From Spirosoma taeanense (lineage in GTDB: Bacteria; Bacteroidota; Bacteroidia; Cytophagales; Spirosomataceae): a stretch of 64,000 nucleotides of DNA. Where the stretch lies: positions 1,178,001 through 1,242,000 of the forward strand of contig NZ_CP053435.1 in NCBI RefSeq assembly GCF_013127955.1. Direction: 5' to 3'. Shown here one piece after another: positions 23,556 through 26,038 of the stretch. Below the pieces are notes generated by a model, which did not search any database, was not told the DNA's origin, and worked only from the letters and a program-made list of their open reading frames with translations. The position numbers and the translations under genes were made by a program. How positions within the stretch are numbered: the stretch's first letter is position 1; every line of letters begins with the position of its first letter.

Positions 23556-23903
23556 TTATTTCGAGTTGTCCAGTTTCCGTTCGGCTTTTTCCAGTTTCCG
23601 TTCGGTTTTGTTCAGGGCCTTGTTGGTGCCTTCTTTTACGTCTTCTTTGGTATTTCTGGCGGCTCTGGACACTTTCCGGCCTGCCTTCTTCGTACCCTCT
23701 TTTACGTCTTCTGCCGTATTTTCTGCCGCGTTTCCAACTTTACGAGCTGCTTTACGGGTTTCCCGACCAGCTTTATCAGCAGCCGCATTGGCAGTCCGGG
23801 CTGCCTGACGGGCTGTTTCTTTGGCGTTTTGCTTGGTATCCTGCGCTGATGCCGCAGCAATTGTGAAAAGCAGCGCAGCGGCCAGGGTCATTACTTTCTT
23901 CAT
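23556..23903 (-). CDS. Exported Ala/Lys/Thr-rich LEA-like protein
   Basis: 115 aa. A clean signal peptide (KKVMTLAAALLFTIAAASAQ) is followed by about 95 residues of degenerate helical repeats rich in A, K, E, R, T and N, for example NAKETARQAARTANAAADKA and two copies of EDVKEGT(K/N)KA. No cysteine or folded-domain motif is seen. The composition resembles group 3 LEA and other desiccation or envelope-stress proteins, but homology cannot be claimed from composition alone. It is transcribed in the same direction as the protease and ECF sigma genes upstream, with 89 bases between it and the protease, and has its own terminator. A stress role is inference. Confidence 0.75.
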   Translation of the reverse strand: MKKVMTLAAALLFTIAAASAQDTKQNAKETARQAARTANAAADKAGRETRKAARKVGNAAENTAEDVKEGTKKAGRKVSRAARNTKEDVKEGTNKALNKTERKLEKAERKLDNSK

Positions 23904-23992: not shown

Positions 23993-25024
23993 TTACTCTC
24001 TGTGCTTAAATACTTTTATCTGATACACGTAAGCCTGCACGCGCTTGATCTGCTGTTTGCGAGGCATATGAGCGAGTGTATTTTTACGGTTCAGGCGCAG
24101 CGGCTGACCTTTTAGCGAATCATTCGGAATACCATTCAGGGCTTCGAGCAGATAGTTTGTCTTAACCGCGAAACTGACCCCCTCCGAGGTGGTCTGTTTC
24201 CCGCTGATAATGCCAATTACGTTGCCTTTTTCGTCGAGCAGCGGCCCCCCTGAGTTACCGGGATTTACGCTGATTGCCACCTGATAGGCAGTTGAGTCGC
24301 CCCGGTACCCCGTGCCTGAGCTAAGGTAGCCTTCGCCATAAACGATCTCTTCGCGGGGATAGCCGAGGGTGTAAACCCGTTCGCCAAGATCAGAGGGCTG
24401 CGTTTCGAAGCTATAGGGTACTGGCGGCAGTGGCCGGAAGGAGTGATCATCGCACAGCTGCAGAATCGCCAGATCGTGTACCTGATCGTTATGAACAATC
24501 CGGGCTTTATAAATTTCTCCCGTCTGACTCTGCACGTAAACCGAATCGGCATCGCGAACGATATGGTTATTCGTGACCATGTAGCCGTCTGCCGTGAGCA
24601 GAAAACCAGAACCGGCTATCTGCGCCGGGTTGACGCTCAGCGCGCGGCCACGACCGCTAATATCATTGATCAGCTTACGCTGCGAAGATTTAACGGCCTG
24701 AATTTCTTTGCTCAGCAGCCGGTATTGCTGTTCCTGCTGCTGGTGGCCCTGCTGATAGGAGCGGTACAGGAAAATAGAACCAAAGGTGGTGATGGCCGCT
24801 ACTGATGCCGCTACCGCCAGCGTCGTACGATACGTCTGCCAGAGCGAACGAATCTGACTCGACTGCTCTGACCGGCTACTTCCGGCCTCAATAAGACTGG
24901 CCTGTTGACGCATTGCATCCATGTCCAGACCTGCCTGCACGGCCGCCAGCTTCCGGCGGAACCGAATCCGGTCGCCATACGCTTGCAGGGCGTTTTCGAT
25001 GTCTTTTTCCTCGTTCATTTCCAT
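23993..25024 (-). CDS. Membrane-anchored trypsin-like (S1C) serine protease with cytoplasmic N-terminus
   Basis: 343 aa. About 65 charged residues precede one membrane segment (about 68-88, TTLAVAASVAAITTFGSIFLY). A coiled-coil-like linker (QQGHQQQEQQYRLLSKEIQ) and a DegP/HtrA-type protease domain follow, with the triad H154 (NNHIV), D184 (HDLAIL) and S258 (GNSGGP). No PDZ domain is present. The topology puts the protease in the periplasm and the N-terminus in the cytoplasm, as in a membrane-bound anti-sigma factor. The ECF sigma gene is 76 bases upstream on the same strand. I infer that the N-terminal part may bind the sigma factor; no known anti-sigma motif is recognisable. An in-frame ATG two codons later is an equal start. 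Confidence 0.85.
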   Translation of the reverse strand: MEMNEEKDIENALQAYGDRIRFRRKLAAVQAGLDMDAMRQQASLIEAGSSRSEQSSQIRSLWQTYRTTLAVAASVAAITTFGSIFLYRSYQQGHQQQEQQYRLLSKEIQAVKSSQRKLINDISGRGRALSVNPAQIAGSGFLLTADGYMVTNNHIVRDADSVYVQSQTGEIYKARIVHNDQVHDLAILQLCDDHSFRPLPPVPYSFETQPSDLGERVYTLGYPREEIVYGEGYLSSGTGYRGDSTAYQVAISVNPGNSGGPLLDEKGNVIGIISGKQTTSEGVSFAVKTNYLLEALNGIPNDSLKGQPLRLNRKNTLAHMPRKQQIKRVQAYVYQIKVFKHRE

Positions 25025-25100: not shown

Positions 25101-25688
25101 TTACTGCTTGTACTCCGAAAAGAACAGCCGCTTGAGCCGCATCAGACATTTATACTTCTGCGTTTTCGCATTGTCGGCGTTGGTATAGCCAAACTTCTCT
25201 GTAATGGCCTGCATACTCAGATGCTGAATATAAAAATCTTCCAGCAGCGTTCGGCAAGGCTCGCCTAAACGATTCAGCGAGTCGGCCATCAGTTCAAACT
25301 GCCGGTCGCGCTCCTCATGATCGGCCAGGTCGTCGTTTAGCTGTTCAACGGCCATGGGGTCCGTTGCCGGGTTGTCAGAATCGCTGACCATAAACCGACT
25401 TTTGTGCGACAACTGCTTCAGCCACAGGCGTCGGCTTACCGAGTAGATGTAGGTCTTTAACTGACAATGCAATTCCAGCGAACCACTTCTGACCTTCTCG
25501 TAGAGAACAATCAGCGTCTCCTGGTAAATATCCTTAGCTTCGTCTTCGCCCCCGCTGTTAGTGGTTACGAAGTGCAGCACCATTGGAAAATACTGACGAT
25601 ATAATTGCGTCAGTGCAGCATCGGAGCCGTCGGCCAGGCCTGATAGCAATTCATCGTCGGTCAATCCCAACCGCCTGCTTTCCTTCAT
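25101..25688 (-). CDS. ECF-type RNA polymerase sigma factor
   Basis: 195 aa. Region 2 is visible as ALTQLYRQYFPMVLHFVTTN and EAKDIYQETLIVLYEKV, then TYIYSVSRRLWLKQL (regions 2.3-2.4). Region 4 is RTLLEDFYIQHLSMQAITEKFGYTN, a helix-turn-helix. The insertion between regions 2 and 4 is acidic (DSDNPATDP and DDLADHEERDRQ). ECF sigmas direct polymerase to stress or envelope genes. The protease gene follows directly. Upstream, 17 bases from the start codon, is one of two mirrored promoter-like motifs (25705-25736), which suggests the factor transcribes its own operon. ATG 25688 is chosen; a GTG one codon earlier is also possible. Confidence 0.92.
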   Translation of the reverse strand: MKESRRLGLTDDELLSGLADGSDAALTQLYRQYFPMVLHFVTTNSGGEDEAKDIYQETLIVLYEKVRSGSLELHCQLKTYIYSVSRRLWLKQLSHKSRFMVSDSDNPATDPMAVEQLNDDLADHEERDRQFELMADSLNRLGEPCRTLLEDFYIQHLSMQAITEKFGYTNADNAKTQKYKCLMRLKRLFFSEYKQ

Positions 25689-25704
25689 CACGTTGCTTCA
25701 TTAC

Positions 25705-25736
25705 TTAATACCGAAAACGTCTCGGACGTAACCCAA
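25705..25736 (-). promoter_or_regulatory. Putative ECF-type promoter of the sigma-protease operon
   Basis: On the minus strand TTGGGTTAC, 16 bases, then GTATTAA. The same pair of elements occurs facing the other way at 25754-25784. The arrangement differs from the general TTG/TAnnTTTG promoter, as expected for an ECF factor recognising its own site. Confidence 0.55.
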
Positions 25737-25753
25737 AAAAAAGTTAAAAAAAG

Positions 25754-25784
25754 TTGGGTTACCTTTTTCCCTATGGAGTATTAA
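25754..25784 (+). promoter_or_regulatory. Putative ECF-type promoter of the small lipoprotein gene
   Basis: TTGGGTTAC, 15 bases, then GTATTAA, mirroring the minus-strand copy. The two -35-like elements form a 9-bp inverted repeat separated by a 17-base A-rich spacer (25737-25753). The lipoprotein start codon is 50 bases downstream of the -10-like element. Confidence 0.55.
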
Positions 25785-25834: not shown

Positions 25835-26038
25835 ATGAAAGCAATCACGAAATCTGCCTTCTTTTTCATGGCCATGATCGCCCTTGCAACCTCTTGCAGC
25901 TCGAAAAAGACTGAATCTGAAACGACTATGTCGGATTCGACTTCGACGATGATGTCTGACTCGTCTTCGACGATGATGTCTGATTCGACGATGGCTACTG
26001 ATTCGGCTTCGACCATGTCGGCTGATAGCGCCCGTTAA
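25835..26038 (+). CDS. Small Ser/Thr/Met/Asp-rich repetitive lipoprotein
   Basis: 67 aa. A lipoprotein signal peptide ends in the lipobox LATS-C, so Cys21 is the likely lipidated residue. The short basic segment SSKKTESE follows. The rest is a low-complexity tail made almost only of S, T, M, D and A with repeats of the type MSDS(T/S)STM; it contains about nine methionines and many aspartates. Such a tail is probably unfolded and could bind metal or shield the surface; this is speculation. The gene is divergent from the ECF sigma-protease operon and shares its promoter-like motif. A strong terminator follows. Coding character is supported by the signal peptide and start. Confidence 0.75.
   Translation: MKAITKSAFFFMAMIALATSCSSKKTESETTMSDSTSTMMSDSSSTMMSDSTMATDSASTMSADSAR
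25940..25987 (+). repeat. 24-base tandem repeat inside the lipoprotein gene
   Basis: Two adjacent 24-base units, both containing CTTCGACGATGATGTCTGA, differ at two positions. The number of units could vary between strains without breaking the frame. Confidence 0.7.

Follow-up and report, generated by a model that had tools for sequence, protein, structure and literature searches.

The window analyzed here, a 64,000-nucleotide stretch of the Spirosoma taeanense genome, carries a candidate three-gene regulatory locus (Table 1). A gene for an ECF sigma factor and one for a membrane-anchored serine protease form an operon on the minus strand, and a gene for a small lipoprotein points away from them on the plus strand. 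The sigma factor scored 64.5 bits against TIGR02937 (cutoff, 42.9) and is about 195 amino acids long. Its start is probably the ATG at 25688, which gives 195 amino acids and is the position used by its orthologues, rather than the GTG at 25691. Immediately 3′ of the protease gene, positions 23556-23903 of the minus strand encode a secreted, repetitive protein of 115 amino acids that is rich in K, A and E and weakly matches Ag473-type lipoprotein models. A GGGTTAC promoter of its own was not seen for this gene.

Table 1. Predicted genes, protein domains and promoter elements of the locus (positions in the window)
Feature	Position	Strand	Basis or detail
HtrA/DegS-type serine protease, membrane-anchored, without PDZ, 343 aa, second gene of the operon	23993..25024	-	Trypsin_2, 5e-28
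Periplasmic trypsin-fold domain of the protease (residues 138-272)	24209..24613	-	Pfam
Predicted transmembrane helix of the protease (~residues 68-90)	24755..24823	-	hydropathy maximum at residue 68; conserved in alignment
Cytoplasmic N-terminus of the protease (residues 1-66)	24827..25024	-	matches positions 40-93 of the anti-sigma-like domain
ECF sigma factor gene	25101..25691	-	TIGR02937 above cutoff, Pfam Sigma70_r2; orthologues
-10 element, sigma-protease operon	25705..25711	-	GTATTAA (minus-strand reading 25711..25705)
-35 element, sigma-protease operon	25728..25736	-	TTGGGTTAC (minus-strand reading 25736..25728)
A/T-rich (A-rich) 17-base spacer between the back-to-back -35 elements	25737..25753		candidate shared UP element
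-35 element, lipoprotein gene	25754..25762	+	TTGGGTTAC, core GGGTTAC
-10 element, lipoprotein gene	25778..25784	+	GTATTAA
Small lipoprotein, 67 aa, lipobox ALATSC (Cys21), D-S/T-rich tail	25835..26038	+	divergent homologues in Spirosomaceae and other families

An earlier note, made from the letters of this DNA alone, had described a two-part motif facing away from itself between the divergent genes, with 15 or 16 bases preceding GTATTAA and with a 9-bp inverted repeat around an A-rich spacer of 17 bases. Both descriptions were confirmed. The site on the sigma side reads TTGGGTTAC-N16-GTATTAA on the minus strand and that on the lipoprotein side reads TTGGGTTAC-N15-GTATTAA on the plus strand, with 21 bp from core to core. 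The full pattern matched twice in the window, compared to an expectation of zero in shuffled sequences, and a search of the complete 5.72-Mb Spirosoma genome with N15/16 returned only these two sites. The motif thus far exceeds chance expectation and is confined to this intergenic region. When the genome was scanned with relaxed N15 patterns, no additional site was found with zero or one mismatch, and allowing up to three mismatches gave a total of 105 sites versus 84 in a reversed control. A larger regulon in this genome was therefore rejected, there being no site with zero or one mismatch and no clear excess over the control. When the region was searched for the housekeeping TAnnTTTG box, a single match turned up (minus strand, 25835-25828), and this motif occurs at chance frequency in the window. 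The sigma-side -10 box ends only about 16 nt from the likely start codon (box and start codon together span 25688-25711, minus strand), a short distance that is kept in most Spirosomaceae. With the box so close, the sigma mRNA would be nearly leaderless.

To determine how widely this arrangement is shared, 222 genomes of the family were scanned. Sigma orthologues were recovered at 62-87% identity, with the next best matches falling to at most 40%. The exact sigma-side motif lay directly upstream of the orthologues and was nearly confined to genomes bearing them, with about zero hits per genome in the reversed control. Fifty-six further loci and the window were compared, for a set of 57. The sigma gene was present at 56 of the 56 further loci, with the protease gene next in line at all except one, where the contig ends. 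The divergent lipoprotein was detected by tblastn at nearly all of them and by ORF inspection at all. The earlier note had expected the motif pair upstream of the sigma and lipoprotein genes of related species and had named its absence, in advance, as the refuting outcome; the pair was present at 57 of 57 loci. Spacer letters have diverged and the 9-mer differs among loci at its outer positions, which leaves GGGTTAC-N15/16-GTATTAA as the common core. The spacing had been called constant. That holds for the lipoprotein side, with 15 bases at 56 loci and 16 at one, and mostly for the sigma side, where 15 bases (n=47) give way to 16 at 10 of the 57 loci.

Beyond this family, sigma orthologues at 53-61% identity were found in Hymenobacter, Pontibacter, Rufibacter and Adhaeribacter, and in Sphingobacteriales such as Mucilaginibacter, Hufsiella and Daejeonella. 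Loci of the Hymenobacteraceae and Sphingobacteriales have matching promoters and the same layout, with proteases 34-45% identical. In a class-wide sample, the sigma factor occurred in 47 of 295 genomes, representing 24 genera. We assembled 162 loci, a few genomes being counted twice because they came from two collections. The sigma-side motif, with GAATTA or GTATAA allowed, was present in 149 of these, a downstream protease in 155 and a recognizable divergent partner in 117. Two of the seven loci without a protease are the same contig end, and the other five are among those with the most distant sigma factors. Comparison of loci shows the promoter pair and the gene triad to be shared, and by sequence there is a sigma/protease/lipoprotein module with nearly letter-for-letter control sites across many families of Bacteroidota. 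This conservation supports the central claim of the earlier note, that the mirrored sites are promoters of one autoregulated ECF sigma factor that joins the three genes. We infer that the sites are recognized by the adjoining ECF sigma factor, and the case for their being its promoters is strong. Variants of the -10 box were seen on the sigma side (GAATTAA, in some clades) and on the lipoprotein side (GTATGAA, in Pontibacter). Co-evolution by a joint change of the -10 box on both sides was considered and was not seen, the changes being one-sided. In the sigma tree, a locus labeled Flavobacterium sp. SUN052 (contig12) groups within the Spirosomaceae, beside Rudanella-type sequences; the record is probably mislabeled or contaminated.

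Where the two promoters form a close pair, the gap between cores was 20-25, 30-35 or 41-43 bp, with none at 26-29 or 36-40 bp even though the order-wide pattern search admitted gaps of 16-46, so that the -35 elements are separated by approximately two, three or four helical turns; some clades have longer gaps, of at least 109 bp. A switch from 21 to 32 bp is seen at one Spirosoma locus, and the sigma tree requires seven changes of gap mode. Taking one value per genus (29 values, some of them from that order-wide search), the Rayleigh R was 0.72 at 10.5 bp, and the best period was 9.6 bp. For 11 hand-picked lineages, the periodicity had a p of about 0.001 against a uniform null. The distance from the lipoprotein -10 box to the ATG, mostly 30 to 51, has no comparable holes. 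A helical register of the two promoters is only suggested by these values because the lineages are few and the choice of independent ones is subjective. Such a register would be explained by a UP element that the two promoters share and both polymerases contact, or by another constraint of helix face. The same clustering about one turn apart is expected of cooperative sites, and together with the clean inverted repeat in the window it fits a different explanation, in which a distinct dimeric regulator uses the repeat as its operator and the GTATTAA boxes are there by chance or serve a different sigma factor. We regard this as very improbable, however, since the gap differs by about 10 and 20 bp among clades and extends to at least 109 bp, yet each half stays N15/16 away from a -10 box of its own, and since unlinked lipoprotein genes bear a single half with its -10 box.

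Those unlinked copies also bear on the size of the regulon. The earlier note had proposed a motif search of this genome and its relatives. Across 36 Spirosoma genomes, 10 exact N15/16 sites lay outside the sigma locus, and for nine of them a gene for a small paralogous lipoprotein begins 36-47 nt downstream. Across other families, most of the unlinked sites in 30 genomes likewise lie ahead of genes for small lipoproteins whose tails are of low complexity, and some of these genes form tandem arrays in which every gene has its motif; a few sites, perhaps chance matches, lie ahead of unrelated ORFs. The search thus led back to the same lipoprotein family, and the regulon appears from these sites to be essentially the sigma operon plus that single family. 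Sphingobacteriales-type genomes have lipoprotein genes in tandem, two or three in number, with a separate GGGTTAC-N15-GTATTAA promoter ahead of each and with repeats such as AAKVDSAA. In a Pontibacter-type genome (contig positions 36878-37618), the lipoprotein promoter region occurs in two near-identical copies 656 bp apart, which suggests a recent duplication.

The second gene of the operon offers a candidate for the control of the sigma factor. The solved structures nearest to protease residues 135-295 are those of DegP/DegS, and the triad of His154, Asp184 and Ser258 is invariant in 151 of 151 homologues. Comparison thus shows the catalytic triad to be intact, indicating that the protein is kept as an active enzyme. 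A Pfam scan of the protease found no PDZ domain, and about 50 residues follow the trypsin domain. A conserved C-terminal tail (23996-24070, minus strand; Q-x-K-x-x-x-x-Y/F-V/I-x-x-V-K-V-F/Y) lies where DegS has its PDZ, and it is possibly a regulatory element.

A full cytoplasmic N-terminal domain of about 75 residues precedes the transmembrane helix in Larkinella, one other Spirosomaceae genus, Hymenobacteraceae and Sphingobacteriales, with the consensus IERYLxGxMxAxERxxFExLLxxDPxLAxxVxEH...YGQR. When 40 such domains were compared with two profile libraries, anti-sigma families were the most matched in both, with all matches below the curated cutoffs: the NCBIfam "anti-sigma factor" model by 26 of the 40 (best, 3.2e-5), Pfam zf-HC2 by 16 (best, 2.9e-4) and "putative anti-sigmaE" by nine. 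AlphaFold2, run on the domain alignment, predicted three helices with a mean pLDDT above 90. Foldseek returned only five matches to this model, two of them M. tuberculosis RslA bound to SigL, and the RslA match is weak (rmsd 1.6 over 37 columns, Foldseek E 4.3, VIA Z 5.2). A PDB profile search with the domain gave nothing useful. The whole protease modeled poorly from its single sequence (pLDDT 41), and that model was left out of the evidence. The HMM and fold matches are weak but convergent, and they suggest that the protease N-terminus resembles an anti-sigma domain in most families. With such a start, the protease has the look of an HtrA protease joined to an anti-sigma factor. Five genera, namely Spirosoma, Fibrisoma, Rudanella, Fibrella and one other, have lost the first 40 or so residues of the domain. 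Its second half is recognizable in 56 of 56 Spirosomaceae proteases (window residues 3-65; E 1e-7 among 56 proteins), so the best description of the window protein is that it descends, in truncated form, from an anti-sigma/protease fusion. Its grip on the sigma factor may differ, given the missing residues. The suggestion that a membrane protease stands in the place of an anti-sigma factor is strengthened by the anti-sigma-like character of the cytoplasmic part in most families.

The protease could instead be a periplasmic effector or site-1 protease that is merely co-regulated with the sigma factor, which would then be controlled by an unlinked anti-sigma factor or by transcription alone. The truncated domain in Spirosoma fits this explanation, and there is a precedent in E. 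coli, where the anti-sigma factor RseA is cleaved by DegS, a stand-alone protease of the same kind (PMC8103513). We consider it improbable in view of the anti-sigma-like cytoplasmic part in most families, the position of the protease gene directly after the sigma gene in nearly all loci, and the half-domain retained in every Spirosomaceae protease tested.

The lipoprotein had been described as rich in Met, Ser and Asp. The Met part of this description proved to be lineage-specific. Although the window tail has seven Met in 46 residues, Met is frequent in no family but Spirosomaceae; some paralogues have just 0-1, and outside the family it is absent from the eight commonest tail residues. The pairing of Asp with Ser/Thr is common to the families. 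In tails of Spirosomaceae orthologues, Asp is followed by Ser or Thr in 263 of 264 cases. D-S/T-[A/I/L/V/M/T] is the O-glycosylation motif of exported proteins in Bacteroidota (PMC12871550), and D-S/T-[AILVMT] occurs 221 times in Spirosomaceae tails (68 +/- 7 shuffled, 148 reversed) and 122 times in tails outside the family (32 +/- 5 shuffled, 37 reversed). By this comparison of tails, the conserved property is the sequon D-S/T-x rather than Met, and the protein is probably a glycosylated envelope lipoprotein. A Met-rich metal or oxidant scavenger was rejected as the shared function, as Met is not conserved. It is nevertheless possible, if somewhat doubtful, that the module is as proposed while the tail is plainly disordered or a Met-rich binder of metals or oxidants, its sequon excess being a by-product of repeat growth. 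The low-complexity repeats and the Met content of the window copy agree with this, and repeat growth could be a partial source of the excess. The distribution of Met argues against it, as does the finding that outside Spirosomaceae Ser or Thr follows Asp in 130 of 173 cases versus 95 of 386 for Glu, across tails of unrelated repeats.

Taken together, we think it likely that the locus is a self-regulating sigma/protease/lipoprotein module with the protease as the membrane partner of the sigma factor. Basal expression would supply the sigma factor and this partner. The protease, descended from a protein in which an anti-sigma-type domain in the cytoplasm was fused through a single transmembrane helix to an HtrA-type serine protease in the periplasm, would retain the sigma factor at the membrane until a periplasmic signal changes or triggers its protease domain. 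The sigma factor would then be released, probably by cleavage, amplify its own operon in one direction and switch on the small lipoprotein in the other, and newly made protease would close the loop down. Driven on both sides by one sigma factor, the locus would form an almost self-sufficient positive-feedback module, and its regulon would be minimal. A role in envelope response is plausible. A more elaborate version seems unlikely to us: a one-chain switch (anti-sigma domain, transmembrane helix and HtrA protease) that cleaves itself or a neighbor to free the sigma factor, with the sequon-rich lipoprotein as both output and monitored client, a circuit that reports lipoprotein sorting or O-glycosylation, and promoters that share an RNAP alpha-CTD/UP element keeping their helical register.

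Autoregulation of ECF sigma factors is ordinary. The predicted module resembles RpoE/RseA/DegS of E. coli in its ECF sigma factor, single-pass membrane anti-sigma component, HtrA-family serine protease on the periplasmic side and positive autoregulation. In contrast to E. coli, where RseA and DegS are two proteins, the protease of this module and its anti-sigma-like domain, full or remnant, are one chain; the PDZ is missing, and the regulon seems not to extend beyond the locus and a single lipoprotein family. With class I (zf-HC2-type) anti-sigma factors such as M. tuberculosis RslA, the protease shares a short cytoplasmic helical domain before a single transmembrane helix, a gene directly downstream of the sigma gene and the pattern Y-L-x-G-E-x-x-x-x-E-R-x-x-F-E. 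It differs from them in having no zinc-binding Cys, in its fusion to a trypsin-fold protease, in its sub-cutoff matches and in its truncation in Spirosoma. In a survey, class I anti-sigma factors adjoined only 6% of Bacteroidetes ECFs (PMC7406223), which makes an anti-sigma/HtrA fusion a plausible alternative arrangement. In the non-subscription literature searched, we found no earlier description of a fusion of an anti-sigma-like domain and an HtrA protease that accompanies a sigma factor, or of a conserved one-family lipoprotein regulon. The locus is a widespread candidate answer to how most Bacteroidota ECF sigma factors, few of which have recognizable class I anti-sigma neighbors, are controlled, and it provides a regulatory link to short, sequon-rich lipoproteins. 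These are exported proteins with D-S/T-[A/I/L/V/M/T] sites, like known targets of general O-glycosylation in Bacteroidota (PMC12871550), from which they differ in being very short, with predicted sites only, a whole tail that is a sequon array and a seemingly dedicated sigma factor. The combination of GGGTTAC-N15-GTATTAA with a very small regulon is testable in a single strain. The promoters of F. psychrophilum SM6 (PMC9723704) are likewise of the Bacteroidota ECF type; however, they have a CGT -10 box and T9SS-related targets, whereas the promoters described here have GTATTAA and precede small lipoproteins.
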